64,000 nt of DNA from Butyrivibrio sp. Lineage in GTDB: Bacteria; Bacillota; Clostridia; Lachnospirales; Lachnospiraceae. Positions 1,909-47,239 of the stretch are shown piece by piece. The notes under the pieces are model-generated. The model saw nothing but the letters and a program-made list of their open reading frames with translations. It did no database searches and was not told the origin of the DNA. The number at the start of each line of letters is the position of its first letter. The first letter of the stretch is position 1. The DNA lies in assembly GCF_017433805.1 (NCBI RefSeq), contig NZ_JAFRGN010000007.1, positions 62,001 to 126,000 on the forward strand, in the 5' to 3' direction. The position numbers and the translations under genes are program-made.

Positions 1909-1923
1909 ACTATTTCCTTACCC

Positions 1924-3063
1924 TTACTTAATAATCTTATGTTTAATGCTTTGCAAACAGTGTTTCAAAGCTAGCTCGTTTGGATAATCAGCAACAGTTT
2001 TATTGGGCGCAGCTAGTATTTCCTGCCATTCTTGTTCTGAAATATCGAGTTTCTTAAGTACATATTCTGTTTCCTCAGCCATCTGCTCTGGCGTACTTGT
2101 AGGAATCTGAATCTCAGCAAGCCCTTCATCTCTTGTCATTTCTCCGCCTACAATGAGACTAGAAATATGATCTCTGCGCTTCTCCCATCCATATTTCTGA
2201 GGCAGATAAACTTCCTGGAAGAACTTTGTAAACCTTGATTCAAAATGTTTACCACCATAATACTTCCAGCCAAACTCTTTCTCCAAAAGAGCAATTGCTC
2301 CTTTTTTAGAATAATCAATATATTCTAATGGATTAATAAATTTAACCGGATAAAAATATTCATAGCCAAAGTACTGATCCCAAAATGTAATGTGCGGATA
2401 TTTTTTTAGAGATATTTTCCCTCTTCCACACTTTTTATATACACCCTTAATATTTATCCAATCTCTTGGCGATTGCTGGTAAGCATGGGAAAGAATTCCT
2501 TCTGTAGCAAGATTGGCACCATTCATTAAATATTTGATGTGATGTTTCTTGCAGTATTGTCTGACGGCTGCAATAAAACAGTGATCCTGAGGAACATCTT
2601 GATTAGCCAGTCCTGAAAACATATATGCGCGCTGCAATTCCTTAATAGTTGGCCAATCCATAACCACTGTATGAAGATCATATCCTAGTTTAGCGCACAT
2701 CTTTTCGATATTCTGAACTGCTATTTCCGAATTCCATCCAGCATCCACATGAATTGCTAATACTCTAAGTCCATATTCATGACATAAATACAAAAGATAT
2801 GAGCTGTCTACACCACCAGATATTCCTAATGCGCAATCGTATTCATCATTTTTACAGTCTTCCTTCATTTTGTTGATTATTTCAGAAAGCTGTTTTTCTC
2901 CATTATCCTTATAATGGCTATACTGTTTGCATAGATCATCGTACTCATGGCAATAGTTGCAAACACCATTTTCATCAAGCACAAGATTGGGATCGCTGGT
3001 AGTATCCATGATGCATCTGCTACATATTTTGTACTGTATTTTTTTATTTGCTGTAGATTCCAT
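1924..3063 (-). CDS. N-acetyl sugar amidotransferase, WbpG/PseA-like
   Basis: This 379-residue PP-loop protein has SGGVDSS at about residues 80-86. Two CxxC pairs near the N terminus (CSRC at about 14-17 and CNYC at about 36-39) look like a zinc-binding knuckle typical of the family. Known relatives (WbpG, LPS biosynthesis; PseA, pseudaminic acid) convert a sugar N-acetyl group to an acetamidino group, taking ammonia from a HisH/HisF-like glutaminase complex. The next two upstream genes are exactly such HisF- and HisH-like proteins, and the start overlaps the HisF-like gene by 20 nt, so the three products probably act together in the cytoplasm. The exact sugar is inferred from other genes in the locus. 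Confidence 0.88.
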   Translation of the reverse strand: MESTANKKIQYKICSRCIMDTTSDPNLVLDENGVCNYCHEYDDLCKQYSHYKDNGEKQLSEIINKMKEDCKNDEYDCALGISGGVDSSYLLYLCHEYGLRVLAIHVDAGWNSEIAVQNIEKMCAKLGYDLHTVVMDWPTIKELQRAYMFSGLANQDVPQDHCFIAAVRQYCKKHHIKYLMNGANLATEGILSHAYQQSPRDWINIKGVYKKCGRGKISLKKYPHITFWDQYFGYEYFYPVKFINPLEYIDYSKKGAIALLEKEFGWKYYGGKHFESRFTKFFQEVYLPQKYGWEKRRDHISSLIVGGEMTRDEGLAEIQIPTSTPEQMAEETEYVLKKLDISEQEWQEILAAPNKTVADYPNELALKHCLQSIKHKIIK

Positions 3064-3805
3064 TCTCTATTAACTCTTTCTCTTCTGGATAATTAATTAA
3101 TACAGCCTGTTTGTCTCCAAAAAAAACAAAAAGACTACCTGCTGCTACTGCATCTGCCCCTGCGTCTAATGCATATTTTAGATCAGCAACTGTTCTAGCT
3201 CCACCACACGCTATTACAGGAATCTGTACAGCGCTTGAAACTGCAGATATTGTCTTTTGATCATAACCAATTCTCATACCATCATTATCTATAGAGTATA
3301 ACAATATCTCTCCCGCACCATAATCAGCATATTTTACAGCCATATCAACTGGGTTCTGCTTTAATTTCTTACCGCCATCTTCGACATAGCATGAAACTCC
3401 AAATAGCCCTTTTCTATAATCTATAGAACATACAATACTCTGACTACCAAAATATTCCGCTGCCTGTCTTATTAGATTGTAGTTACTAGCAGCAGTATTA
3501 ATCACCACTTTTTCAAATCCTAATCTAAATAGTCTCTTTATCTGATCGATATTATTAATTCCGCCGCCGTAACTAAGAGGCATAAATGCTTCAGAAGCCA
3601 TCTTTTCTAACAGTTCAAAATCTGGTTCTTTATTCTCCTTAGTGGCTGTAATATCAAGAATACATAATTCATCAACATACTTTTCATTAAATATCTTGAT
3701 GGCATTTATCGGATCACCCAAATACTGCGCCTTATCAAATTTCTTGGTTTTTACCAAATTACCATCTTGTATTAGCAAGGTCGGTATCACTCTTGGTCTA
3801 TTCAT
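3044..3805 (-). CDS. HisF-like cyclase-type subunit of a sugar amidination complex
   Basis: The 253-residue protein is a HisF-type (beta-alpha)8 barrel with SYGGGI at about 78-83 and a conserved CGGARTVADL segment near the C terminus. Aligned by eye with imidazole-glycerol-phosphate synthase, the second catalytic Asp is kept (SIDYRK, equivalent to HisF Asp130). The first, normally in an IPCLD motif, is replaced (IPTLL). This fits a HisF paralogue that channels ammonia to the WbpG-like amidotransferase rather than making histidine. It lies 6 nt after the HisH-like gene and overlaps the amidotransferase gene. No other his genes are nearby. Confidence 0.85.
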   Translation of the reverse strand: MNRPRVIPTLLIQDGNLVKTKKFDKAQYLGDPINAIKIFNEKYVDELCILDITATKENKEPDFELLEKMASEAFMPLSYGGGINNIDQIKRLFRLGFEKVVINTAASNYNLIRQAAEYFGSQSIVCSIDYRKGLFGVSCYVEDGGKKLKQNPVDMAVKYADYGAGEILLYSIDNDGMRIGYDQKTISAVSSAVQIPVIACGGARTVADLKYALDAGADAVAAGSLFVFFGDKQAVLINYPEEKELIENGIYSK

Positions 3806-7629: not shown

Positions 7630-8688
7630 TCAGCGATATACCATCTTCTTAAAACGAAAAAGCATCCTATCTACCATATGAAGCATCACGAGTTTTTTAT
7701 TTATGTATAGACGATATCTTAGCTTATTTATAAACTTCAACTTTATTTCCTTTTTATTAGACACGAAGAAGTTCTTATTATCTTCCAAAATGCCACTTAA
7801 TGCCACTTTCTTTTCACTCAAGCTTATATCTCGTTTATTGTATTTAAATAAATGCTCCATTACTGTATTCAGCGCATTGGAATCATATGATAATAATAGT
7901 TCATTGGCTTCAGATGAACTATACTTTTGATCATCACAGATTTTCTGTACAATTCCTCTCACCTTGCTATATATATAAATCGCATCCCTAATATCCTTTT
8001 CGCTTTTATAATGAACAATACTATCATCCCTCAATATATAATTGTAAAGGCATTCATTTATTAACAAAAAGTCAGAAGCATATTTGATAATATATGCTGT
8101 CTGAAGCTTATCTTCACCAATATTAACTGCACAATCATATATTTCATCTATGTGTTCTTTAAGGAAGTTCCCTTTTACAACTTTCCCCCATACACGATTA
8201 TATTTGTCAGTACCGGCAAATTTCTCTAGCATTGACTCTTTAGAAATAGATTCTGTTTCAAAATTAGTTATAAAACTCTTTTTTTTACCATTTTCACTGC
8301 ATAGATAATATCCGCAAACCAATACATCAGGTCGACTTTTACTTATGTAGCGATCAATTACCTCTAAAAAATCATCTTCGATATAATCATCAGAATCAAC
8401 AAAAATATAATACTCTCCTGATGCATTTTTTACTCCAGTAGCTCTAGCCTGTAAAAGTCCCAAATTACTCTGACGAAATACAAATATGTTCGAATATTTA
8501 GCAGCATATCCATCACATATTTTGCCGGAATTATCTGTAGATCCATCATCCACCAAAATCATTTCACAATATGATTCGAATAATGGTTGGCTCAATATAG
8601 ATTCTATACACCTATCTATATATTTTTCCACATTATATACTGGAATCAAAAAACTATATTTAATATTTCTTTTTTTTTCGTTAAGCAT
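7630..8688 (-). CDS. family 2 glycosyltransferase
   Basis: This 352-residue GT-A enzyme has an N-terminal FLIPVYN motif at about 13-19, VDDGSTDNSG at about 44-53 and the metal-binding VDSDDYI at about 97-103. The remaining 200 residues are the variable acceptor region, with no transmembrane segment in the core. It should add one sugar to a lipid-linked precursor at the inner membrane face. It sits directly after the GT11 gene in the operon, 9 nt apart. Donor and acceptor cannot be deduced. Confidence 0.85.
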   Translation of the reverse strand: MLNEKKRNIKYSFLIPVYNVEKYIDRCIESILSQPLFESYCEMILVDDGSTDNSGKICDGYAAKYSNIFVFRQSNLGLLQARATGVKNASGEYYIFVDSDDYIEDDFLEVIDRYISKSRPDVLVCGYYLCSENGKKKSFITNFETESISKESMLEKFAGTDKYNRVWGKVVKGNFLKEHIDEIYDCAVNIGEDKLQTAYIIKYASDFLLINECLYNYILRDDSIVHYKSEKDIRDAIYIYSKVRGIVQKICDDQKYSSSEANELLLSYDSNALNTVMEHLFKYNKRDISLSEKKVALSGILEDNKNFFVSNKKEIKLKFINKLRYRLYINKKLVMLHMVDRMLFRFKKMVYR

Positions 8689-8723
8689 CGCTAGCCTTTC
8701 ATCACATCAATATTCCAATCCCC

Positions 8724-10305
8724 TCACTTCACCCAAATACATACATTACAATTATTAGCCTCGCTCGAAATATGATATTCATCACTTAATCTATATCCGT
8801 CTTCTTGCAATACTTCTTTGTACTCATCTTCAGCATAATCTCCCAAAGCTACCACTTCATAAAAGCCTTCACTTATTTTCTCTTTGCTATCCCCAATATA
8901 ATCAACATACTGCTCCGTCAATTTAAACGCATTTGGAAATATCATCTTTTTTATATCATCTGACTTTTCTAACTTGTTCAACAGACCAACAGAATAGCAA
9001 TTAGAATGCCCATAATTATCAGAATATATTCCCTTTTCAAGGCAATAAAATGAAAGTGGTAGTGCATCCACCTTGACTTTGTCCACGTCTACTATTCGAG
9101 CATCTAAATCCTCATATAGGCGATTATACTCGCTAAAATACTTTTCTGGTTTAGGATTCATAAAAATAAATGATGATATAAGTACCGTTTGAACTATTAA
9201 AACACAAGCCAATTGCCTAGGTCGACATAAAACAAACATTTTATCAGGCAAATAGTTCCATTCCTGAACTGCAACAAGTATAAAGTAAGGGAATAATAAT
9301 TGTATATAATATGTGTATGATGTACCATCATTTGTACTCAAATATAAAGCTATTACGAACATAGTAATAGCCATTACAGCTTCAAATGTTGAAGCAAAAG
9401 AAATAGATTCTTTATATTTTTTTCTTTCGTAGAAACTATTATTCTACTGACAATAGCCCATAGCACTGTTATATATAATGGAAAATAATAAAATCCAAGC
9501 TTAATAAATCTCAAAATAGATCTTAATAATTGATAATCATTATAAATAGCAAGTAAATATATATTCACAGTAAAATATGTCGGAAACATGATAGCCGTAA
9601 CAACTATAGATATTCCCCCAATAAATATTCCATACAAAGCAAATGACAATGCATCTTTTCGCCGTTTGATAAAAAGATACACCAATTGTTCAATTGAAAC
9701 AAAAACAAAATACTGTTTAACATAAAACTCTGCAATACATATTAAAGCATACAGTAATGGTCTATATTCCCCGACTCGTCATCTTTTTTAGTAGCATAAA
9801 TAAGGATAATTAATAGAGTTACACCCAAGCAGTCAGAATATACGCCCGCAAATGCAGTATACCTCCATTATAATGATATTCCATAAATGCATCCCAAAAC
9901 AACCGAAACATGCTTTTGATACATCATGTTTACTCGAGCAAATAAATAAACACCAATCATTTCAATAATCAAACAAAGAAATTCAGCAAACAAAATTGCA
10001 TAGTGCACATCAAGAGAAAACAGCGGGGATATTAAAAGCGGAAACAATACTCCATACATATACGCGGGATAAGTTCTACCTAATTCATCGGTAATTAAAA
10101 ACGGATTTTCTGCATCATGTAAATATTCCGCTATTTTAAGAGCGACACCTTCACGCAATTCAGTTTGAAAAGCAATCCCATCAGAGCCCGAACAATTCAA
10201 AACATACACTATCTTAAAAAAGTATATTGCTAATATGATGCCTATTCCCAGTAATATAATTAGTCGATATTCTTTTAATTCATCCTGCTTATTGAATTTA
10301 ATCAC
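8724..10305 (-). pseudogene. broken polytopic membrane protein (glycosyltransferase-like)
   Basis: Pieces of one hydrophobic protein are spread over two frames. The likely original start is a GTG at 10305 after a strong GAGGGGG. The first piece has a TM helix and a DELGRTYPAYMYG stretch resembling membrane GT-C proteins. An in-frame TAA lies at 9870..9868, and the same frame then continues (AFAGVYSDCLGV). Later frame changes fit one missing G in a GGGG run (about 9769) and one missing A in an A7 run (about 9420). Adding those bases restores SGEYRPLLYAL and KEKKYKESIS. Longest open pieces: 9868-10305, 9374-9685 and 8724-9374. As written it cannot give a full product. Confidence 0.65.
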
Positions 10306-10470
10306 TAAAGTCCCCCTCAATATTCTTTGTAAAAAATTATGCACAATGCGCGGTCCCGTAAAAATACTGCATTTCACAATTACTATTCACAGTCTTTAGA
10401 AATCAGTGCCGAATTTACATCGCCACGGTTCCGAGAATCCGAATTGTATTTAGAGAAAGAATAACTATAA

Positions 10471-11917
10471 CTAATATTCATAAAAAATAGCAATGCTATT
10501 AAATCCATAGTATTTAGCAACCGCCACGTTTACCCAATAAGATGGATCATCCGATAGATAGAAATTGTATATATCATCAATTGTAGGTGGGAAATCAATA
10601 CTTGATATTCTAACATCCTCACCCTCATTATAGCCTTTTAGCGATTCTATAAATTCTTTACAATAATAATAATGACTTTCATATACTTCTTCAGACAAGT
10701 TCCTTGATATTTGGAATATTTTAACATTTGAAATTCCATATCCATCCAACATAAATACGATAGTAGCTATCATGATAATTGTAATCCGTAAACATTTTTC
10801 TTGTTCTGATTCAATATGACACCTGAGTTTTTTTCCAATCAAATAAGAAAAATTTATTGATGATAGAATTATTGCTACATCCATCAAAAAGGCACATCTA
10901 TCTGGTAAAGCCTCCGATGAATAGCCTAATGATATTGGAAATGAAGTTACAATAGGCGCAAAAAGTCCTAGCGCACTAACAATGATTTTAGCATCTGTGG
11001 TGGAATTGTTCTCCAATTTTGCACCAAACATAAACCCCATTAACAAAACTAATATTATCAAGAACACAATATTAGTGGACTTAAATAAAATATTCCATCT
11101 TGAACTAGTCACATTTATTGTGTCATATAAAGCTCTCAAAGGGTGTATTCCACTTTCATCTATCGCTGAATGGCGAACAAAATTTCCTGGTGCCACAGCA
11201 TTTATTCCAGCTGCGATTACCCATGCTATCGTAATAATGATATTATACACGGGGATTTTTTTTGTAGAAAGTAAGAGATATAAAACAAAAAGCAAAGCCA
11301 CAAAACATCCAGTCCCTGATACAGTGAGGGACCCCCCATAGCCATAACACCTAGTACAATGGCGCCCACAAAGCTTATCGTACTTTTCTTTTCATAAGTA
11401 TTCCAAAATAATACAATCGCAAATAGTAAAATAGATAGTGGGAAACTGTATGATGTAGCTCCAGAAAACCAAAAGAATATTTCTGGATAAGATTCAAATC
11501 CGCAGAAAGAAAAAACTAATATGGCAATTATCATTAGTTTTACATGGAGCTTTTCTTTGGCATTTACACTTAATGCTTTCCAAGCGAATATTATAAGTGA
11601 AACATAAAACATTAAGGCATTTGCAGCCATAATGCATCTCAATTGTCTAAATCCAAAATTATTTATCGGACTTAATAAAGCCTGTAAAAACATTGAGAAA
11701 TATGTTCCCTGCCAAGTTAGATATATTGATTTAGAGTACGTAAATGACGCCAATAAATATTCCATAAAAGATACATGAAAAATACCTACTCCATTACCAT
11801 GGCTAAAATCATCCGCAGCTAAAACGCTATATGATGCCGCATGAACCATTGATATAACCATGTAAAAAATGCAACATACTGTAAAAATGGAAATCACTAT
11901 TTCATGATTTTTTTCAT
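10471..11917 (-). pseudogene. DUF6056-like polytopic membrane protein, frameshifted
   Basis: Two overlapping frames (11897..11226 and 11301..10471) together make one multi-pass protein resembling the two DUF6056 proteins at 53.4 and 62.8 kb: an early DDF motif, WQGTYFSMF, and APGNFVRHSA after the middle helices. Two single-base deficits explain the break. After ATG 11917, which has a perfect GGAGG, an A7 run needs one more A to read MKKNHEIVISIF. At about 11330 a G6 run needs one more G to read MGGSLTVSGTG. Function of the family is unknown, but members recur in surface-glycan loci. It could be phase-off, decayed, or misread. Confidence 0.65.
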
Positions 11918-12950: not shown

Positions 12951-14381
12951 TTAGAATTGAAAATATAAAAAATTTTTTTCTCCTACGCTTGCAAACAAGA
13001 AAATCCACATAACTAGAAAGATGTACACAATCCATCGTATAACTATTTTCTGTTCGCCAAGCCAAAGAATAACATCTTTTTGTAATGATACTAAATCATA
13101 ACCTGCTAGTATGATAAGAACAAAAAGCATCTTGGCATATTCAAAATATTCTAATCCAGATTTATTACCAAGGTATTGTTTCCATTTGCATATACCACTA
13201 AACATATGAGAAATAACAAATATAGCATCTTTTAAGGATTCTGCTCGAAAGAATACCCACGCTATATTACAAAAAGAAAATACAACAAACCATGAAAAAA
13301 TAGAATATAACCAATGACGGTTATAAAATTTGAAACTCTTTTGTATCATACGTTCTAGCAACTGGGCTGCGCCATGTATCCCACCCCATATTATAAAAGT
13401 CCAGTTAGCACCGTGCCATAACCCACTTAGCAAAAAGGTCATAAACAAATTAATCGCATTTCGAAATTTACTTCTTCTATTGCCTCCAATAGGTATGTAA
13501 AAATAATCTCTAAACCATGTGGAAAGAGATATATGCCATCTAGACCAAAATTCCTTGATAGATTTTGAATAATATGGGCTTTTGAAGTTCTCCATTAGCG
13601 TTATGCCAAGCATTCTTGCAGTACCAATTGCGATATCGGAATATCCAGAGAAATCACAGTAAATCTGAATAGAAAATCCTATAACAGCTAAAAATAAATG
13701 AAAACCAGTGTTGGCATCCAGAGAAGCATATACCGAATCCACATAGAATGCTATAGCATCAGCAATACACATTTTTTTAAACAACCCCCACAGAATCCTT
13801 TTGAGTCCGTATGAAGCGTTGTCATAATCAAAAAAATGCTCAGTCTTTATCTGTGGCAATAAATTATTGGTTCGTTCTATAGGACCAGCAACTAATTGAG
13901 GAAAAAAAGAAATAAATGTTGCATAGTACCCAAAATTATGCTCAGCCTCTATCTCACCACGATAGACATCTGTTATATAACTTATAGTTTGAAATGTATA
14001 AAAAGAAATACCCACCGGTAAAAGAAGCTTGATTGTCTGGGGACTTAATTTAATACCCACAAATGATACTACTTCTGCAAAGGTAGATATGGTGAAATTT
14101 AAATATTTAAAAACAAACAAAACGCCCAGGCAAAGTATTGCTGCTACTAGCAATATTGCTTTTTTATTTCTGTTACGCTGTTCGTTTTCAATAAGAATAG
14201 CCGCAAAAAAAGAGATTGCTGTTGTAAAAAAAATGAGTATTACATATTTCACATTCCAACTCATGTAGAAATAATAGCTAGATGCCAACAGTAAAAGCCA
14301 TCTAAATTTGTGTGGAATCCCCCAATAAATAAAAAAAACAACAGGCAAAAACAGGGCATATGAAAATGAATTAAATAACAT
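12951..14381 (-). CDS. MBOAT family O-acyltransferase (DltB/AlgI-like)
   Basis: The 476-residue multi-pass protein has the MBOAT core: PVGISFYTFQ (about 117-126), GPIERTNNLLPQ, CDFSGYSDIAIG, FWSRWHISLSTWFRDY and WHGANWTFIIWG, which contains the conserved catalytic His. The family moves an acyl group across or at the membrane to a carbohydrate or protein. The SGNH-like partner lies directly downstream. An adenylation enzyme and a carrier protein lie 6-10 kb upstream in the same operon, so activated acyl or aminoacyl groups could be supplied from a carrier as in the Dlt pathway (inference). Length is normal and the gene is intact. Confidence 0.88.
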   Translation of the reverse strand: MLFNSFSYALFLPVVFFIYWGIPHKFRWLLLLASSYYFYMSWNVKYVILIFFTTAISFFAAILIENEQRNRNKKAILLVAAILCLGVLFVFKYLNFTISTFAEVVSFVGIKLSPQTIKLLLPVGISFYTFQTISYITDVYRGEIEAEHNFGYYATFISFFPQLVAGPIERTNNLLPQIKTEHFFDYDNASYGLKRILWGLFKKMCIADAIAFYVDSVYASLDANTGFHLFLAVIGFSIQIYCDFSGYSDIAIGTARMLGITLMENFKSPYYSKSIKEFWSRWHISLSTWFRDYFYIPIGGNRRSKFRNAINLFMTFLLSGLWHGANWTFIIWGGIHGAAQLLERMIQKSFKFYNRHWLYSIFSWFVVFSFCNIAWVFFRAESLKDAIFVISHMFSGICKWKQYLGNKSGLEYFEYAKMLFVLIILAGYDLVSLQKDVILWLGEQKIVIRWIVYIFLVMWIFLFASVGEKNFLYFQF

Positions 14382-36606: not shown

Positions 36607-38382
36607 TTACAGTCCAAGTTCCGCTTTAGTTCTTTCAATAAGTTTTCCATTAGAAACTTCATATATTCTATCGCAGTTCCTAACTGTTGATAATCTATGC
36701 GCCACAATAATGAGGGTCTTCTCTCCATGAAGCGCATCAATTGACTCCATAAGGGATTTCTCGGTTTCATTATCAAGAGCAGCCGTAGCTTCATCAAACA
36801 CAATAACTTGTGTTTCAAAGTAAAGTGCTCTTGCAATAGCCACTCTCTGTCTCTGTCCACCGGAGAATTTCACTCCACGCTCACCTACTATTGTATCCAG
36901 TCCCTCATCTAATGTCTTCACAAAGTCGCCAAGCTGAGCCTGCTCGATTGCTTTCCATACTTTATCATCATCAATTTCTTCCGGAGTAAGTCCAAAAGCT
37001 ATATTATTTCTTAGAGAATCATCTGTAAGGAAAATGCTCTGTTGAACATACGCAAGCATATGACTCCAAGAGTCTATGCATTCTGTAATATCAATTCCAT
37101 TTACTTTAACTTCTCCGCTTTGAGGTGTGAACAGACCTAGGATTATATCGATAAGTGTCGTTTTACCAGAGCCAGACGCACCAATGAATGCTACAGACTC
37201 ACCTCTTTTAATTTCTAATGATAATCCATTGATTACGTCTTTATCCGCACCAGTGTATCTCCAATGAATATCATTAAGTGTAATACTATTAAATTCCATT
37301 TCTGGAACTATGGAAGTAGCGGACTTATCTGATTCCAGCACTCCTTCTGCATTGACACTCGTAAGATTTTCATATGCTTCATCAACACCCGGTTTCTGGA
37401 AGATGATCTGTGTCGCAGATCTAGAAATTGTTGACATTGCAGGAAGCATCTTGATTCCACCAACAGCAAACACCGCCAGCTGTGGAAGGAATGAACTAAG
37501 ATCTGCCCCCTGTAGCACTCTTACATACAAAATTGATATGATACCAGACATGAAAACTGTTTCAATAATTCTGATTGGGAATGTCTGTACGGTGATATAT
37601 TTGGCTTCTAGCCTTCCTTTATTTTCAAAAGCATCTTCGTAAGCATCAATAAAACGATCTTTCCTACGCATTGCCATTATCTCTTTGATACCTTCAAGTA
37701 TCTCATATGAATACTTTGTAACGCGTGTCTCAGCAACACGCTGCTCTCTACCCAAAAAGCTAGTTTTCTTTCTAAGAATAACCACCAAAATATACATGCA
37801 AACAAGTGAAATGCCAAGAAGTCCTATCGCCATAGTCAAATCGGTGTATGCCAGAAATGCTGCTATCATGAGAAGTGTGAGAATCTGTGTTATAAGATCA
37901 AATAATGTTCCCAGTGCATCCTTAACGCAGCCTACATCATTACCAATTCCACGGATTATCACAGAGCTGTTCGTCTCTACAAAAAACTGATATGGTTTAC
38001 TCATGTATGCTCTGAGCATCTTAACAGATAACTTTTTCTGTAATTTGAATCTGTATGAATTCTGGAAATATGCAGAATACATCAGAAATGCATTCTTAAA
38101 AATGTAGAACACAACTAAAGCAAAGCTCATAAACAATACAAGCTGCATTCCACTTATTCCAGTGATATCAATTATACTGCCAATAATAGGATATTCTCTT
38201 ACCTTCTCTGGAGAAGCTATCGCGTTTATAAAAGGAACTATGAGGCTGACTCCAACCGTTTCCAAAACTGCACACAACAAAATATCAGCCAAAACCACAT
38301 AGGATTTCCGCCTGTCGCCCTTATCAAGGATTCCGAATATTCTTTTAATTACATCAATGAATTTTCTTATGTCATTAGTCAT
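36607..38382 (-). CDS. ABC exporter, fused permease and ATPase (MsbA-type)
   Basis: The 591-residue half-transporter has six membrane helices in about residues 1-320. The nucleotide-binding domain follows: Walker A GASGSGKT (about 400-407), signature FSGGQRQRV (about 507-515), Walker B VIVFDEATAALD and the H-loop AHRLST. It probably exports lipid-linked oligosaccharide or another lipid. Its start overlaps the GT4 gene by 8 nt. A 200-bp internally deleted copy of this gene lies at 41834-42033. Confidence 0.87.
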   Translation of the reverse strand: MTNDIRKFIDVIKRIFGILDKGDRRKSYVVLADILLCAVLETVGVSLIVPFINAIASPEKVREYPIIGSIIDITGISGMQLVLFMSFALVVFYIFKNAFLMYSAYFQNSYRFKLQKKLSVKMLRAYMSKPYQFFVETNSSVIIRGIGNDVGCVKDALGTLFDLITQILTLLMIAAFLAYTDLTMAIGLLGISLVCMYILVVILRKKTSFLGREQRVAETRVTKYSYEILEGIKEIMAMRRKDRFIDAYEDAFENKGRLEAKYITVQTFPIRIIETVFMSGIISILYVRVLQGADLSSFLPQLAVFAVGGIKMLPAMSTISRSATQIIFQKPGVDEAYENLTSVNAEGVLESDKSATSIVPEMEFNSITLNDIHWRYTGADKDVINGLSLEIKRGESVAFIGASGSGKTTLIDIILGLFTPQSGEVKVNGIDITECIDSWSHMLAYVQQSIFLTDDSLRNNIAFGLTPEEIDDDKVWKAIEQAQLGDFVKTLDEGLDTIVGERGVKFSGGQRQRVAIARALYFETQVIVFDEATAALDNETEKSLMESIDALHGEKTLIIVAHRLSTVRNCDRIYEVSNGKLIERTKAELGL

Positions 38383-39577
38383 TTTGTATCTCTACACGTT
38401 CTACTAAATATCTAAATAACTCGAGGTAGCTTTCCGATGTTTTTTGCCACGAAAACTTCTCTTTTACCAGGTGTGAACTCTGTTCGCCCTGCTCCAGCGT
38501 TAAGTTTCCGTTAGATAACATAGCAATCAGGCGCTTGCCAAATTCACTTGACCCTTCTACAAATCCATTACCATCTATAAGTTCGTCGCTTCCCTGGCAT
38601 GGTGTCATGAGAATAGGAAGTCCATAGGACATAGCCTCCAACACTACGTTAGGCATTCCTTCTTTCCTAGATGGAAACACAAAAATGTCGGCATTTCTAT
38701 AGTATTCTGGCAGTTCGTTCTTGTTCTTTTGACCATAGAAAACTACTGTGTCTTGTAAGTCGTGCTCTGATGCGAGATTTTCCAGTGTTTCTCGGTATGG
38801 GCCATCACCTACTATCTGGAATAGTAAGTTTTTGCCGACGCTATTGCAATACTCACGAACAGAAGCTAGCTGCGGAATAATATCCTGTAAGCCTTTTCTT
38901 TCGATGAGCCTGGAAACAAATAGAAGGTTGATGGTATTGTCCTGGCACGCTTCCTGACTAGTTGTGGATACATAGGTGGAATCTTTTTCTGCAAAGGCAT
39001 TCAGATCTGCTCCATTAGGAATTACCATTATTTCTTTTTTATCATAGAAATCTTCAGCAAGTTTTTTGAGTCCCTTACTATTAGCCACAAGAGCATCTGC
39101 ATTCTTCCATATAGTTTTAATTGCAGGGCCTATCAGCTTATATACCTTTGTGAATCTATCCTGGAATCCAGGAATATCACCGCCTCCAAATCTGATAACG
39201 TATGGCAGCTTGTATTTCTTTTTAAGATAATACCCTACAGGGCCACTTGGAATGCCGAAGAATATCTGGCAAATGTCATATTTATTATCTTTTTCCAACC
39301 GGTCAGCTACTGGAAGCGCTTTTTTAAGATAATCAAGCATTTCAGCAAAGCTACAATGTTCTTTATGTTTTCTTTTGGTTTTGAGCCTTGTGATGGTTAC
39401 GCAGCCGCTTGTGTCTTTGGTTTCAATTATTTCATGTTCCTTGAGGCCATCAAACCATACTGTTACTATATCAACTTCATGCCCACATCTTGCATATTGC
39501 CTTGCAAGATTCATACAAGCATTGGCTCCACCTCCACCAATTGGTGGGTATTCGTGGGAGATTATTAGAATATTCAT
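38375..39577 (-). CDS. family 4 glycosyltransferase
   Basis: The 400-residue GT-B protein begins ILIISHEYPPIGGGGANAC (about 3-21). It has LLFVSRLIERKGLQDIIPQL at the C-domain start and FPSRKEGMPNVVLEAMSYG with the E-x7-E motif at about 305-323. It is the first full GT gene after the PsiE-like gene, so it may be near the 5' end of the long operon. It overlaps the ABC gene. Confidence 0.87.
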   Translation of the reverse strand: MNILIISHEYPPIGGGGANACMNLARQYARCGHEVDIVTVWFDGLKEHEIIETKDTSGCVTITRLKTKRKHKEHCSFAEMLDYLKKALPVADRLEKDNKYDICQIFFGIPSGPVGYYLKKKYKLPYVIRFGGGDIPGFQDRFTKVYKLIGPAIKTIWKNADALVANSKGLKKLAEDFYDKKEIMVIPNGADLNAFAEKDSTYVSTTSQEACQDNTINLLFVSRLIERKGLQDIIPQLASVREYCNSVGKNLLFQIVGDGPYRETLENLASEHDLQDTVVFYGQKNKNELPEYYRNADIFVFPSRKEGMPNVVLEAMSYGLPILMTPCQGSDELIDGNGFVEGSSEFGKRLIAMLSNGNLTLEQGEQSSHLVKEKFSWQKTSESYLELFRYLVERVEIQND

Positions 39578-40125: not shown

Positions 40126-40157
40126 AAAAAATGCGGTGTGGAAAATCCACACCGCAT
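40126..40157 (-). terminator. intrinsic terminator after desulfoferrodoxin gene
   Basis: A perfect 12-nt stem (ATGCGGTGTGGA with its complement, 40131-40142 and 40146-40157, loop AAA on the plus strand) is followed on the minus strand by six T. It fits termination of the leftward desulfoferrodoxin transcript before the large glycan operon. Confidence 0.8.
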
Positions 40158-40178
40158 CCACTCTAGACATTATACAAC
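40131..40178. repeat. 48-bp hairpin repeat, copy 1
   Basis: This segment matches 42068-42115 at about 46 of 48 positions. It includes the 12-nt stem hairpin and, on the minus strand, an upstream GTTGTATAAT that resembles a -10 element. The second copy lies about 1.94 kb away in the same orientation. Confidence 0.85.
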
Positions 40179-40239
40179 AACCCGAAGATGATAGATAGAG
40201 TTCGTATATCTTCTACTTAATCCTAGCTTCAGTATTAAC

Positions 40240-41833: not shown

Positions 41834-42033
41834 TGATATATTTGGCTTCTAGTTTACCTTTATTTTCAAATGCCCCTTCGTAAGCATCAATAAAGCGTTC
41901 TTTTCTCCGCATTGCCATTATCTCCTTGATACCCTCAAGCATCTCATAAGAATACTTGGTAACACGTGTCTCAGCAACTCTCTGTTCTCTTCCCAGAAAG
42001 CTACATCAATGATTTTTTAATATCATTAGTCAT
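41834..42033 (-). pseudogene. internally deleted copy of the ABC exporter gene
   Basis: From ATG 42033 it reads MTNDIKKSLM then stop. One base on, another frame reads FLGREQRVAETRVTKYSYE and onward to about FENKGKLEAKYI. These match the N terminus and residues of about 206-264 of the intact exporter at 36.6-38.4 kb, with the stretch between lost. Nucleotide identity in the retained part is high (most differences at third positions). Confidence 0.8.
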
Positions 42034-42067
42034 TTTGTATTACTACTCAACCTCTCAAACATGAAAT

Positions 42068-42115
42068 ATGCGGTGTGGAAAATCCACACCGCATCCACTC
42101 TTGATATTATACAAC
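42068..42115. repeat. 48-bp hairpin repeat, copy 2
   Basis: Near-identical to 40131-40178, with the same ATGCGGTGTGGA stem and AAA loop. On the minus strand it follows the DAC-like gene by 36 nt and could terminate that operon, although the T-run seen at copy 1 is degraded here (ATATTTC). Confidence 0.85.
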
Positions 42116-42150
42116 ATCACGCTACCGAATGATAGAATGCATCTGCCTTC

Positions 42151-43443
42151 TCACTTATCACTAGATGTTACATTTGTATATGTATCTGGAATAAATATGT
42201 CAACCATCCCATCTTCAGATATTACTGCCACTACAAAATATATTTTGCCAGCGTCCTTAACTAAAGATGAGCCATATGTATAAAGCGAGTTAAAACGTGC
42301 ACCTCTGCCTGGATCGCCTTCCAAGATGGCTTTTCCATCGACTATTGCTCCTACGCCGTAGCATTCACCCTCCAAATTGAGCAATATAGCGCCATCTATC
42401 GCAGTAACTCCAGAAGATTCTATTAGCTTTTTATCCAATTGCCTAGGCTGAATTTTTCTTGCTCTTTTTAGATTTGTTAATCTGTCAACCTCGAGCAGCA
42501 AGTGCTTATTCTTATTTTTTCCCTTATCCCCGATAAAAACTAGGCCTGTCCCATGAGAAGCAAACTGACTTGCGCACTCTATTACTGCTTTTACTGTAGC
42601 AGCATCTTTAGGTTCAAGATATCCATCCAGTTTAGACAACTGAGCAGACACTTCGTTTTTGGGCTCCAAGAAAGGAATGTGGAACACGCCTTCTCTATAG
42701 TCCAACAAAACATCCTGCTGCTTTGACACATTTCTGTATACCACCCAGGATAACTTACTTTTGATGTCTATGTATACACTTCCTTCTTTCAACCTATTAT
42801 TTTTGACAATTCCCAGCATCTTATATTCATATTTGCCGTCTTTTTTACAAACAGAAATCAGTAAACTATTATTCTTACCCGCTAATTCCATATATTTCTT
42901 AATAGTCCTGAGATTATCAGTTGCAAATAACAGCGGTCCATCATCACTGATAAATTTAACTAGCATTTTATTATCGCATTTATCTAATCCCTTAGTAAAA
43001 AAGCACAGCGTCGATTTATTAAATCTTTTTTCATATTCCATAGCAGAAACATGTATCAACAGCTCAGTCTCAGGTAACTTATACTTCTTCATTACCTTCT
43101 TGCGATACTCTTCTATAAACCAATCTTTCTTTGAAAAATTGCCTAACAAATAGTTGACTCGGTTGGCATCGCATCTTCTGTTGAGATTATCCACCAGCAA
43201 TGATAGTACTAAATCATCCTTTAGTGATTTCTGTAATTCGTCACATATTACTTCCAGTATAAAGCTTAATGAATCTGCTTTTTTCTGATATTCTTTAGCC
43301 ACTTCCCAACATAAAACGTGTTTTTCAACTTTACACGATATTTTGTCAGAAATATCCAGACTCTGCTTCATATCAAATATTTTTTTTATTCTTTCAGAAA
43401 TGTCTTCCAGTACCTTTTGGCTGTCAGTCTCAGTGTTCCCCAT
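42151..43443 (-). CDS. DAC-like (degenerate diadenylate cyclase fold) putative nucleotide sensor
   Basis: The 430-residue protein has a helical N-terminal region (about 1-120). The C-terminal part resembles DisA_N/DAC domains: TAIDGAILLNLEGECYGVG with the DGA motif at about 349-351, and DPGRGARFNSLYTYGSS about 30 residues later, where active cyclases have RHR. The RHR positions are changed (RFN), so synthesis of c-di-AMP is unlikely. Inactive DAC-like sensor domains are known from nucleotide-centred conflict systems. It starts 14 nt inside the end of the metallopeptidase-like gene, so both are co-translated. Family assignment is by eye and moderate. Confidence 0.55.
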   Translation of the reverse strand: MGNTETDSQKVLEDISERIKKIFDMKQSLDISDKISCKVEKHVLCWEVAKEYQKKADSLSFILEVICDELQKSLKDDLVLSLLVDNLNRRCDANRVNYLLGNFSKKDWFIEEYRKKVMKKYKLPETELLIHVSAMEYEKRFNKSTLCFFTKGLDKCDNKMLVKFISDDGPLLFATDNLRTIKKYMELAGKNNSLLISVCKKDGKYEYKMLGIVKNNRLKEGSVYIDIKSKLSWVVYRNVSKQQDVLLDYREGVFHIPFLEPKNEVSAQLSKLDGYLEPKDAATVKAVIECASQFASHGTGLVFIGDKGKNKNKHLLLEVDRLTNLKRARKIQPRQLDKKLIESSGVTAIDGAILLNLEGECYGVGAIVDGKAILEGDPGRGARFNSLYTYGSSLVKDAGKIYFVVAVISEDGMVDIFIPDTYTNVTSSDK

Positions 43444-46213
43444 TTTTTAGTAGTTTCTCCCAATTCTTCTCACCAATTTCGTTATAGTAATTAGCAATAT
43501 GTTTATGAATATCAATAATAATATCGCTTGTTCCAACTCCACCTTTTTCAACAGAAAAGAGCTCAAACATTTCTTTTACACTTTTCCGTTTCATATCTCT
43601 CTTTTCATTCTTTTCGGAATTAAGTTCATCCAGCTTGCTTACGCAATGCATAAGGTACTCAGCTATAAGTTTTAAAACGTACTTATCTTCCATGATGGTT
43701 AAACTAGATATTCCATCCCTTGTTAGTTCCTTTTTATTCTTAATAGAATCCGCTAACTTTTTTATTTCTTTTCCCTTTTCTTGTCTTTCGCGAGATAGGT
43801 ATTTGTCCATTTCCTCCTTGGCTATTTTTGCAGTTTTAACGCAGTCGCTATCTGTAAAAGCGTTATCACCACACTGTATATCTCCTTTCTTCCAATGATA
43901 CTTTTGGCAGTGGATCATACAATAAGTAACAAGTGCTGATCTAAGTGAAAAAACTGTAATACAATCAAAATCCTCTTGTCCTTGGTATTTAAGTTCTCTT
44001 ACAACCAACTCTATATACTCACTAAATGAATATTGTAAAGTCTTTATACAAATTAGATCTGCTATGCATTCTTTGTATAAGTAAAAGAGTATAGAAAAGA
44101 CACCTTTAATATCAAATAATCCTCTAAGAGTTTCACCTGTAAATTCCTGTCCCCAGCGATGTATATCCTGTGACAATTCTTCGATTTTCTTGTCAGGTTC
44201 TTCATTGTCCAATTGATAATAGTATTCTCTTTGCAACAGAGAATGCCATATTTTCTTCGGATCCATCTGTACAATACAGACCATCACGTTCTTTTCCCTT
44301 GGCACCACCCATTCTCTATGATAGATTCGTTTTTTTAAATGATTTGACATAGGGTCATCTTTACTGAAGTTTTTGGCTATCCATATTTCATTAGCCTCTT
44401 CTGCTAAAGTTTCTATATCCTCTGCCATCTCGTCCCAAATATCATCATAAAGTGCAAACTTAAATCTCTTATCTCTGCCTTTTTCCTGCCTGGATTTCTG
44501 AAATGATAATCTGATGTATTTTACATACATATATGCCATTATCTTCGTAGTAATCTCAGCACGCTCTTTCCTGTTTCTTATTCCTCCCCCGACGTTATGT
44601 GCCACCTCATGTCCCAAAATAAACATCAAATCACGTGGTCGATAGGTATTTATTTCCGGAAGTTCCATTAGAAATAGCCTCTTTGTGTCAGATATTGTGC
44701 TAAACTTTTCTCTTAATTTCACAAAATCAGAGACTCCAGGATAAGCCAGAAAAACATATTCATGTTCCTCTTCGTTATCATTCACAAATGTACCGAGGTA
44801 TTCCTTCATGTTATAAATATAGGCATTGTAAAATGCCAGTAGTTTCACAGGAGTTTCATACACTCTCACATCAAAGTCTGGAGCCTGAGTAAACTGACGA
44901 TCAGACCTAACAGAATTCTGAACCAACAAGCTGAATTCTCTAACAAACCCATAAGCAGATCTAAAAAAGGCGTTACGTATTTGCTCAATTCCTCTATCTG
45001 CAGCTTCTGGGTTTTCCTTGTAATAATCAAGCATTTCTTCTTCATCGTTCAATGCCTGTTCGGCCAAGTCGATCAAAATTGACATCTGCGTAAGCATCGT
45101 TTGAAATAGATAATCATGAATAGGGCTTACCTCAAATTTGCCTAAAGAATTTAAAATACTCAAAAAATATCGTCCAAGATGAGAGATTTCCCCATTTTTA
45201 CCAGCTCTACTCTGCCATTCTTTACATCGATCAACCAACACTCTACATAAGACAGGCTCATTTTCACATATCTTTCCAGTCTTATTCGCCACAGGGAGTC
45301 CTTTAGTGCTGATCTTATTCGAATCATAATCCGAACCTATGATTGTAGTAACTCCAACTAGATTGTCCTGATATATTTTACTGGTATGGTTGAAAATGCC
45401 TTCCTTCTGCTTATAGAAAGAAAGGAAAATATCCCACGGCAACTCTCCTATCTCAAATTTGATATCATTGCAGCCTAGCACACCCTGTTTACTAATAGTT
45501 CCAATATATTCTTCGCCACCTTTTTCTTTTATCTCTTCAAGCATATGGTTATAAACAACATCAGCCAATTCTAGTTCTAGCGCAATAATATATATCTGTA
45601 TATTTCTTGCTATTCCAAGCTCCTTTCTACATTTACCTTTATTGATCATTTTCATATTGATTGAAGCAAAAGAATAGCCATAGCTCACTCTAAGCCCAGC
45701 TTTTCCTAAATGAATATCTTCTATTATCTTGGCTCCATCTTCATATTTTTTGCATTTGAGAACAAGTATAATATCACTATAGTCAATGCTAAAATACGTT
45801 ATAGCCTTAACATCTGTATTTTCGACACTGTCCTCTAATGCCGCAGCCTTTTTTAGTGATTCCTTGGAGCAAATGTCCTTGTCTATTTGAAGCATGGAAA
45901 AAAACAGGAATGGATAATCTGCAGTTTCACTATCCTTCCAGAAAATAGCATCCCTCTGTTTTGTATCATCGTCATCTCTAAATCCAAACACCGTTTGTAT
46001 GGAATAGCTTCCGCACAGCTCCTCGCTTTGAGATCTCTGGGCATGCCATAATTTTTCAAAATCTAAAGCGCCTTCCATGTTTTCAAAAAGATTTTCACCC
46101 ACCAACATGTCGTCATAATATCCCAGTATTTTCCACTGTACGTCCTCTACAGCCGGCTTAGAAGGTGGAAGATAATCGTTAAACAAATAAAACGGTCTAC
46201 ATACTTTTCCCAT
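43430..46213 (-). CDS. large HExxH metallopeptidase-like protein
   Basis: The 927-residue cytosolic-looking protein has no signal peptide. A gluzincin-type HEVAHN is at about 534-539, and YKECIADLICIK at about 712-723 offers an ExxAD-type third zinc ligand, as in M48 peptidases. The N-terminal 450 residues match no family I know; the C-terminal 200 are charged and helical. ATG 46213 follows a GGGG-containing RBS. It is paired by a 14-nt overlap with the DAC-like sensor gene. A cytosolic protease controlled by a nucleotide signal would suit an abortive-infection effector (inference). No similar gene is elsewhere in the window. Confidence 0.55.
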   Translation of the reverse strand: MGKVCRPFYLFNDYLPPSKPAVEDVQWKILGYYDDMLVGENLFENMEGALDFEKLWHAQRSQSEELCGSYSIQTVFGFRDDDDTKQRDAIFWKDSETADYPFLFFSMLQIDKDICSKESLKKAAALEDSVENTDVKAITYFSIDYSDIILVLKCKKYEDGAKIIEDIHLGKAGLRVSYGYSFASINMKMINKGKCRKELGIARNIQIYIIALELELADVVYNHMLEEIKEKGGEEYIGTISKQGVLGCNDIKFEIGELPWDIFLSFYKQKEGIFNHTSKIYQDNLVGVTTIIGSDYDSNKISTKGLPVANKTGKICENEPVLCRVLVDRCKEWQSRAGKNGEISHLGRYFLSILNSLGKFEVSPIHDYLFQTMLTQMSILIDLAEQALNDEEEMLDYYKENPEAADRGIEQIRNAFFRSAYGFVREFSLLVQNSVRSDRQFTQAPDFDVRVYETPVKLLAFYNAYIYNMKEYLGTFVNDNEEEHEYVFLAYPGVSDFVKLREKFSTISDTKRLFLMELPEINTYRPRDLMFILGHEVAHNVGGGIRNRKERAEITTKIMAYMYVKYIRLSFQKSRQEKGRDKRFKFALYDDIWDEMAEDIETLAEEANEIWIAKNFSKDDPMSNHLKKRIYHREWVVPREKNVMVCIVQMDPKKIWHSLLQREYYYQLDNEEPDKKIEELSQDIHRWGQEFTGETLRGLFDIKGVFSILFYLYKECIADLICIKTLQYSFSEYIELVVRELKYQGQEDFDCITVFSLRSALVTYCMIHCQKYHWKKGDIQCGDNAFTDSDCVKTAKIAKEEMDKYLSRERQEKGKEIKKLADSIKNKKELTRDGISSLTIMEDKYVLKLIAEYLMHCVSKLDELNSEKNEKRDMKRKSVKEMFELFSVEKGGVGTSDIIIDIHKHIANYYNEIGEKNWEKLLKNGEH

Positions 46214-46234
46214 ACTTTTCCCCTAACAATCCCC

Positions 46235-46268
46235 ATGTTTTATAATAAAAAAACTGGCAAGAACCTTC
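46235..46268 (-). terminator. intrinsic terminator after the 59-residue small gene
   Basis: The stem ACTGGCA/TGCCAGT (46242-46248 and 46262-46268) is followed on the minus strand by a run of seven T. It separates the small gene from the metallopeptidase-like gene. Confidence 0.8.
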
Positions 46269-46322
46269 GTCCTGCCAGTCAAATACTAACTTCACAAAAA
46301 TATTTAATACACATTAACACTA

Positions 46323-46502
46323 TCACACCTTAACCAGCTCGCCCAACTCATTATGTCTTGCTCTACTACGTGTTACTGTCCTACCATTTACATCTCTTCT
46401 ATCAATAAAGCAACTGTACTCTTCATCCTCTTGATCACCATATATCAATTCATACAAATCTTCTATCGAGTACGGTATTTCTCTTCTAACATCTGCTCTC
46501 AT
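46323..46502 (-). CDS. small charged protein, 59 residues, unknown
   Basis: ATG 46502 has GGAGG 7 nt upstream, a clear promoter 62 nt further up and a terminator 55 nt after the stop, so it is a complete small transcription unit. The protein starts MRADVRREIPYSIEDLYELI and has an acidic centre (DQEDEEY) and a basic RDVNGRTVTRSRARH segment. I do not recognise a family. It lies directly upstream of the metallopeptidase/DAC pair and could be part of that module (regulator, antitoxin or guard), or independent. Confidence 0.6.
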   Translation of the reverse strand: MRADVRREIPYSIEDLYELIYGDQEDEEYSCFIDRRDVNGRTVTRSRARHNELGELVKV

Positions 46503-46783
46503 AATAACGCCTCCACTTGGTTACTCTTTCCAAAAAAACAAAGTTGGGTTAGTGGTATCTGCTATTATAGCAGAGCACTATCACTACATCAACATTTTTT
46601 TCTGAAAAAAAGCATTAAAAAAAAATAATCCTCCCTAAAATTACCTACAATAATAATATAATAATAGTATATTACAAAAAAAATAATAAATTTGTTAAAT
46701 CTATCAAAACTGTAACATTTTTCCGATTACTTCTCTTCTAATAATAACATATATACTGTATTTTGTGTTTATTTTCTCTTTTC
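46503..46783. other. AT-rich intergenic region
   Basis: It contains the small-gene promoter and leader (46503-46592). The rest (46593-46783) is very AT-rich with A and T runs. No further gene or hairpin was found. It separates the acyltransferase operon end from the small-gene unit. Confidence 0.5.
46564..46592 (-). promoter_or_regulatory. sigma-70-type promoter of the small gene
   Basis: On the minus strand, TTGATG (46592..46587), a 17-nt spacer and a perfect TATAAT (46569..46564). Transcription would begin about 55 nt before the small gene start. Confidence 0.75.
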
Positions 46784-47239
46784 TCATATATTTAGTATTT
46801 TCCTTGCATATGAACACGTCGCTGTAACTTTCGCATTGTTACGCTCAGCTTCTTCCAATACTTTATATACCAAACGCTTAGCTATTCCTTTGCCTTGATA
46901 ATCCGAGGATACGCCTGTGTGGTAAATATTCCAAACGTCATCAGTAATCTGATAATCGCACTCACCTATTTCTTTTCCATTGTCTAGAGCGATGCTTCGG
47001 TTACTTTCTTGATCAAACGTCACATCTATATCATGTCTATACAAGCATGTCAGTGCGCCTGATGGGCACTGACTAATTGCCTGCCATATTTCTTTGGTCT
47101 CAGCATTATTAAGATTGATCCATGGCTTTTGCCCTGGACAAAAGGTCTTGGGGCTACCATTGACACATCTTCTCGCATGAAAACACTTATCAGAATTCCA
47201 AAATACTACGATATCATCATTCTCATAGGTTCTGTGCAT
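46784..47239 (-). CDS. Fe-S (Fer4_19-like) and GNAT acetyltransferase fusion
   Basis: The 151-residue protein has an N-terminal divergent 4Fe-4S-like domain (CFHARRCVNGSPKTFCPG at about 20-37 and CPSGALTC at about 58-65). A short GNAT domain of the YjdJ type follows (IYHTGVSSDYQGKGIAKRLV at about 109-128, acetyl-CoA-binding QGKGIA loop). Such fusions occur in Clostridia, and their substrate is unknown. It is the last gene of the acyltransferase operon, 15 nt after it. Confidence 0.78.
   Translation of the reverse strand: MHRTYENDDIVVFWNSDKCFHARRCVNGSPKTFCPGQKPWINLNNAETKEIWQAISQCPSGALTCLYRHDIDVTFDQESNRSIALDNGKEIGECDYQITDDVWNIYHTGVSSDYQGKGIAKRLVYKVLEEAERNNAKVTATCSYARKILNI

Follow-up and report, generated by a model that had tools for sequence, protein, structure and literature searches.

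A stretch of 64,000 nucleotides (nt) from Butyrivibrio sp. (contig NZ_JAFRGN010000007.1, positions 62,001 to 126,000; hereafter the window) carries on its minus strand two overlapping genes, one encoding a predicted metallopeptidase of 927 amino acids (aa), here termed PEP, and the other a 430-aa protein with a DACNH-like domain and a diadenylate cyclase (DAC) fold; a small gene of 59 aa precedes them. PEP recurs in related genomes, always beside a partner gene, and the partner may be a DAC-like, a SIR2-type or a multi-transmembrane (multi-TM) protein. Judged from sequence, the pair has the look of a bacterial immune module, so far undescribed, whose outputs can be exchanged, and we think it quite possible, if somewhat short of probable, that the PEP locus is an anti-phage (conflict) module composed of a PEP core, control by the small protein and an exchangeable output.

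The genes are transcribed in the order 59-aa gene, PEP gene, 430-aa gene, and the latter two share 14 nt (43430-43443). An initial annotation, made from the letters of the sequence, had described a 927-aa protein with HEVAHN and ECIAD motifs overlapping by 14 nt a 430-aa protein with DGA and RFN motifs, and these coordinates and motifs were confirmed. Its proposal of a conflict-type module of peptidase and DAC-like protein was strengthened by the recurrence of the pair in 9 further genomes. A PADLOC 2.0.0 search returned no match for the three window proteins or for seven PEPs. Its remark that the pair was not known to have been described also held, as neither PEP nor the pair has a name in Pfam, NCBIfam or PADLOC and a search of openly licensed PMC papers found no PEP-DAC pair. 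The genes and motifs of the locus are as follows.

46323-46502, minus strand: small gene of 59 aa (open reading frame (ORF) list) with a Shine-Dalgarno-like GGAGG; it accompanies the PEP gene and diverges fast
43430-46213, minus strand: PEP gene, 927 aa; gluzincin-like metallopeptidase with no family match above a curated cut-off
44597-44611, minus strand: HEVAH, predicted zinc-binding/catalytic motif, PEP residues 535-539 (HEVAHN, 535-540), from the ORF translation and alignment
44057-44071, minus strand: ECIAD, predicted third-ligand motif, PEP residues 715-719, from the alignment
42151-43443, minus strand: gene of the 430-aa DACNH-DAC protein (ORF list and NF053872 match)
42853-43059, minus strand: DACNH-like N-terminal domain, residues 129-197 (PF21750, E 0.02, under the cut-off)
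42181-42627, minus strand: DAC-fold domain, residues 273-421; fold present
42388-42396, minus strand: DGA motif, residues 350-352, from the alignment
42286-42303, minus strand: GARFNS, residues 381-386, the version that this family has of canonical GTRHRA, from the alignment

A constant peptidase with exchangeable partners

Among 397 genomes from the host's family, a profile search found PEP in 14, the host included, and these together with genome G524 and the Lachnospiraceae contig L025 make up 16 PEP loci (L and G numbers denote loci and genomes of this study). PEP is paired with a partner gene in 16 of 16. The partner is DAC-like in 10, the window and 9 further genomes, and the two genes occur in either order: PEP comes first in the window, L025, L114 and L140, and the DAC gene first in L009, L112, L113, L138, L139 and L143, with a gap of 274-364 nt between them in L113, L138 and L143. 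Locus L009 (G510) contains the sequence of L100, the Blautia sp. An81 locus, so that the family searched is apparently Lachnospiraceae. Two loci (L010, L141) have a SIR2 partner (Pfam SIR2_2, E 4e-15 and 5.9e-17; PADLOC ThsA, 9.3e-13 and 5.5e-15), and four (L142, L144, L145, L146) have a multi-TM partner with 3-5 hydropathy-predicted membrane segments, a rough label because the hydropathy rule also marks PEP segment 705-723.

Chance neighbourhood of PEP and DAC genes was ruled out by the 10 PEP-DAC loci among the 16 and by sub-groups common to the trees of both proteins, namely (window,(L025,L114)) with L140, (L113,L138) and (L100,L112), in a comparison made by eye with weak support for the deeper DAC nodes (0.43, 0.62). 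All five full-length DAC matches in 299 family genomes adjoin PEP (G000, G510, G803, G897, G935); two short matches, in G501 and G873, covered 31 and 69 profile positions and were set aside as spurious. The pair may also have company. Locus L112 (G897) is a three-gene set, DAC-PEP-SLATT_5, in which the SLATT gene (13117-13773) overlaps PEP by 4 nt (Pfam SLATT_5, 3.8e-10; PADLOC RTasSLATT, 1.6e-14). Beside the DAC-PEP pair of L143 (G1033; 157-3638) lie two serine-recombinase-like genes, one matching Resolvase (Pfam, 2.2e-32) and the other recognized by eye, which suggests a mobile element, and AAA_15/AAA_21 ATPase genes occur near the pair in L138 and L146.

Other observations concern single loci. 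PEP is split over two frames in two loci of the multi-TM type (L144, 7874-10373; L145, 7926-10521), possibly through a frameshift, an assembly error or decay. The region 5' of PEP-DAC in L025 (1-4217) encodes a receiver protein and a receiver-phosphorylase (PNP_UDP_1), together with an 847-aa protein that is cut by the locus end and matches nothing in Pfam.

PEP, a predicted gluzincin

The HExxH motif is present in all 16 PEPs, the window copy included. In the 14 that were aligned (L144 and L145 were left out for their split frames), identity to the window copy is 15-31%, and E715 and D719 are invariant, as are W92, Y462, H535, E536, H539, R548, R551, R758 and Y853. A stricter search with an ExxxD pattern missed L146 and, via overlap, L009. 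The E-x-x-A-D of the ECIAD type is presumably the third zinc ligand, and the natural reading of PEP from these motifs is that of a gluzincin, which would act by zinc proteolysis. Matches to known families are weak: the Pfam M48 model (PF01435) scores 16.1 bits against a cut-off of 20.3 and matches one of seven PEP members at E up to 1, NCBIfam gave no match below E 0.08 for the same number of members, and single members matched Guanylate_cyc (0.018) and GYD (0.11). Sequence searches of the PDB with PEP and DAC profiles returned weak unrelated matches only.

The DACNH-DAC protein and its family

The 430-aa protein matches NF053872 (DS2_3_antiphage, NCBIfam) over residues 127-421 with an E-value of 1.4e-28; the score of 99.7 bits stands against a family cut-off of 630, so that the protein is a homolog and not an equivalog of DS2_3. 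The DAC fold that the initial annotation had expected is present. At E up to 1, DACNH was matched by 11 of the 11 members of a DAC alignment that included the window (best 1.2e-30) and the canonical DAC model PF02457 by 7 of the 11; PF02457 did not match the window protein at E up to 10. The active-site pattern is that of a family: in 39 rows, window included, R383, D350 and G351 are present in 39, and N385 in 38. The canonical RHR is absent, being R-F-N in the window copy and R[YFH][NG] in 39 of 39 rows, with R-[YFH]-N-S as the family pattern. The host carries its own DAC gene, a single CdaA-like match (L117) that keeps GTRHRA.

The initial annotation had read the altered motif as the mark of a degenerate, inactive sensor. 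This reading did not survive, and a decayed copy is ruled out, as the alteration is found family-wide and, according to an excerpt of PMC13092281, defence is lost in mutants of the related DS-2 DAC that are changed at two predicted catalytic positions. Because the motif pattern is family-wide and those mutants lose defence, the DAC site is under selection.

From genome contigs 400 DAC relatives were collected, of which 80 were kept for a neighbourhood survey. The concern that homologs might be solo genes was allayed for PEP, paired in 16 of 16 loci, although in the DAC family only 2 of the 80 (L025, L100) adjoin PEP, a count that may be low because an early three-sequence PEP profile was used. 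Across 84 DAC-family loci (the 80 and four viral ones), a CD-NTase relative occurs in 7 and a patatin relative in 2, while HD, SLATT and SIR2 partner-gene queries found 0 relatives. Two of six plasmid DAC matches (L017, L019) adjoin patatin and nucleotidyltransferase genes. A search of genome contigs with the 430-aa protein alone as query gave 44 stretches, none of them confirmed. In L011 (G045; 8028-10916) a DACNH-DAC relative lies directly 3' of an HD-domain protein (Pfam HD, 1.2e-11; PADLOC dGTPase, 2.2e-11), possibly another two-gene DAC module.

The small upstream gene

The initial annotation had given the 59-aa gene its own promoter and terminator, and candidates for both were found, the promoter-like site being of a common kind.

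46592-46564, minus strand: promoter-like site TTGATG-17-TATAAT with extended TG, 5' of the small gene (consensus scan, 10/12)
46280-46252, minus strand: intrinsic terminator or attenuator in the gap between small gene and PEP gene (hairpin z-score -4.7; 0/200 and 0/40 shuffles as stable)

In this AT-rich DNA the scan found 29 promoter-like sites against 21.2 +/- 4.4 in shuffles, and the terminator scan overall was near chance (4 found against 2.4 +/- 1.5 in shuffles). Nine loci have 274-420 nt of noncoding room before PEP, and seven of these, against an expectation of 0.17 from shuffled sequences, hold a Shine-Dalgarno-led ORF in the same direction of at least 53 aa, a cut-off set after inspection of the loci. 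The small ORF goes with PEP, since it is placed between DAC and PEP in L113, L138 and L143, and it is present beside PEP in DAC and SIR2 types alike. In a hairpin test of 14 of the 16 PEP loci (again leaving out L144 and L145), the hairpin between small ORF and PEP was better than at least 39 of 40 shuffles in the window, L025, L114, L138, L143 and L141. An alignment of nine small proteins with MAFFT revealed no conserved C-terminal motif; those of L138 and L113 are alike at the C-terminus by eye.

Distribution and flanks

PEP occurrence in the host's family is patchy. No relative of PEP or of the 430-aa protein was found in 36 other genomes of the same genus (among 60 relatives searched, several of them incomplete), phylum samples of 299 and 224 genomes searched for PEP beyond the host's family returned the host alone, and searches of plasmids and viral contigs for PEP gave none that was confirmed. 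No clean empty site turned up; a stretch of the same-genus genome G1040 (L157) holds orthologs of the flanking genes without PEP or DAC and is rearranged.

42094-42068, minus strand: terminator-like hairpin 3' of the 430-aa gene and operon (z-score -5.9, 0/200 shuffles as stable)
41834-42046, no strand assigned: duplicated scrap of 37593-38395, a candidate cassette boundary (88% over 170 base pairs (bp), 87% over 46 bp)
42064-42116, no strand assigned: 53-bp repeat of 40127-40179 (94%) containing the operon-end hairpin, a strong inverted repeat

Segment 41834-42003 is a copy of 37593-37762 (88%) and 42002-42046 of 38350-38395 (87%). The gene scraps and repeats said by the initial annotation to bound the block are accordingly real downstream, with three repeats of 87-94% identity; upstream, the same repeat search over 46211-46800 gave a weak inverted self-match only (E 7e-4). 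The module was probably acquired horizontally.

A model for PEP loci and its alternatives

In modular defence systems a constant component with varied effector-type partners is usually the sensor or switch. Because PEP is constant and its partners differ in effector kind, PEP and its small companion would be the switch and the DAC protein the output. These observations have led us to propose a model whereby PEP forms the constant core, probably as infection sensor or proteolytic switch, and the small protein, made in excess of PEP from its own promoter and terminator, probably serves as PEP inhibitor, bait or substrate. Infection would disturb the small protein, or be sensed by PEP itself, and the released PEP would switch on its partner by cleavage or contact, the partner being the DACNH-DAC protein here and a SIR2-type or multi-TM protein elsewhere. 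The DAC-like partner might then make or sequester an adenine nucleotide, leading to growth stop directly or to pore opening (compare the SLATT protein of L112), or might use its conserved DAC site differently. In its fullest form the model has an infection-sensing zinc protease, restrained by a small inhibitor or bait that evolves fast, set off plug-in outputs (DAC, SIR2, multi-TM) by proteolysis, and it has the R[YFH]N DAC produce a nucleotide that is not ordinary c-di-AMP (cyclic di-AMP). This form is speculative, and we consider it somewhat unlikely as a whole.

Several points weigh against an immune module of this design. No phage assay of a PEP locus was found, PEP has no family match above cut-off in Pfam, NCBIfam or PADLOC, and its structure model, built from three sequences, is poor (predicted local distance difference test score 36.5). 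Within the window, queries for CD-NTase, patatin, HD, SLATT and SIR2 returned no relative, polysaccharide-type genes surround the locus, and the G+C content of the pair (0.363 and 0.359) gives no foreign sign against a mean of 0.371 (standard deviation 0.036) over the window's 54 ORFs of 150 aa or more, which include these two. DACNH itself is named as a domain that probably senses, which agrees with the DAC protein acting as a sensor, and the multi-TM class is loosely defined. As to the small gene, its length cut-off was chosen post hoc; L025 and L140 fail the small-ORF rule, the 63-aa ORF of L025 by its Shine-Dalgarno site; the hairpin test called no terminator in the small-ORF loci L113 and L010, while L009 has a hairpin of comparable energy inside coding sequence; and the small proteins are nearly without mutual similarity (best E 0.015, window against L114).

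The initial annotation had the sensor control the protease: a nucleotide produced in the course of infection would be bound by the DACNH-DAC protein, which would then activate PEP as a toxic effector protease. The sensor label of DACNH, the altered RHR motif and the effector position that peptidases hold in some conflict systems, as described in an excerpt of PMC7159879, all speak for it. However, PEP also pairs with effector-type SIR2 and multi-TM proteins, the window contains no CD-NTase relative, and DGA and R383 are conserved. Since the partner is a SIR2 or multi-TM protein in 6 of 16 PEP loci, control of PEP by DAC is less likely than the reverse and fits the exchange of partners less well; we regard it as unlikely. 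The same exchange bears on a guard or decoy mechanism, in which a nucleotide steadily made by DAC would keep PEP or SLATT off until its removal by phage sponges or nucleases frees the effector. Working of this kind has been proposed for Panoptes (excerpt of PMC12657218), and one operon here does hold a cyclase-type protein with conserved active-site residues and a possible effector, with SLATT as third gene in L112; a SIR2 or multi-TM protein in place of DAC is nonetheless difficult to reconcile with a DAC product that is needed to restrain PEP, and such a mechanism seems very unlikely.

The small gene invites a different reading, whereby PEP would cleave the small protein into a peptide signal or toxin and the partner would be a co-effector. 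Loci of the DAC type and of the SIR2 type alike have a small, fast-diverging gene next to a zincin-like peptidase, and the C-terminal likeness of the L138 and L113 proteins would suit such processing; the lack of a conserved C-terminal motif among nine small proteins and the terminator often found between small gene and PEP gene speak against it, and we consider it distinctly unlikely. We give little credence to a function outside immunity, such as an accessory stress or c-di-AMP-homeostasis module tuning the envelope or osmotic state. The host's CdaA-like DAC gene, the surrounding polysaccharide-type genes and the scarcity of partners among the 84 DAC loci (7 with CD-NTase relatives, 2 with patatin, 0 for the HD, SLATT and SIR2 queries) are in its favour, but the patchy occurrence in 14 of 397 genomes, the SIR2, SLATT and CBASS-type links and a related DAC validated in DS-2 (excerpt of PMC13092281) are against it.

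Should PEP loci prove to be defence modules with PEP as the switch, they would provide a further immune module, one that centres on a protease and swaps its effectors, and the poorly understood DACNH-DAC family, of which one related DAC is validated in DS-2, would gain a second, independent genetic context. A two-gene system would also make the question of enzyme or receptor testable for the variant DAC, and the small variable gene 5' of the protease points to rapid evolution at an interface either between host and phage or of self-control.

Relation to known systems

PEP resembles M48-type gluzincins (PF01435) in its HExxH followed by E-x-x-A-D, and differs from them in the approximately 175 residues between the motifs, its weak Pfam score and large unassigned N- and C-terminal regions. 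The window DAC family has R[YFH]N where CdaA and DisA (PF02457) have RHR. The layout of the locus recalls that of ToxIN-type systems, in which a small antitoxin element is followed by a terminator and then a larger toxin gene; the order is the same, but ToxIN combines RNA repeats with an RNase toxin, whereas here a small ORF precedes a peptidase.

Among known systems, the 430-aa protein has a relative in DS-2 of E. coli (phospholipase, cGAS-like and DAC proteins), whose DAC is homologous to it, and the plasmid relatives L017 and L019 have DG[AT] ... G[AS]R[YF]NS in common with the window protein. In contrast to DS-2 and CBASS, searches of the window with three nucleotidyltransferase and two patatin sequences (E 0.01) found no relative, and the partner is a metallopeptidase; membership of the window locus in CBASS is ruled out, as the window holds no CD-NTase or patatin relative. 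Among the NTP-dependent conflict systems described in the excerpt of PMC7159879, zincins are paired with FxSxx-COOH small proteins in peptide processing, and PEP loci likewise place a zincin-like peptidase beside a small, fast-diverging protein, but they differ in the terminator between these genes in several loci and in the DAC, SIR2 or multi-TM partner. Panoptes optSE, as presented in the excerpt of PMC12657218, is also a two-gene operon with a nucleotide-cyclase-type protein; it combines mCpol with a membrane effector, where the window locus combines a DAC protein with a peptidase.

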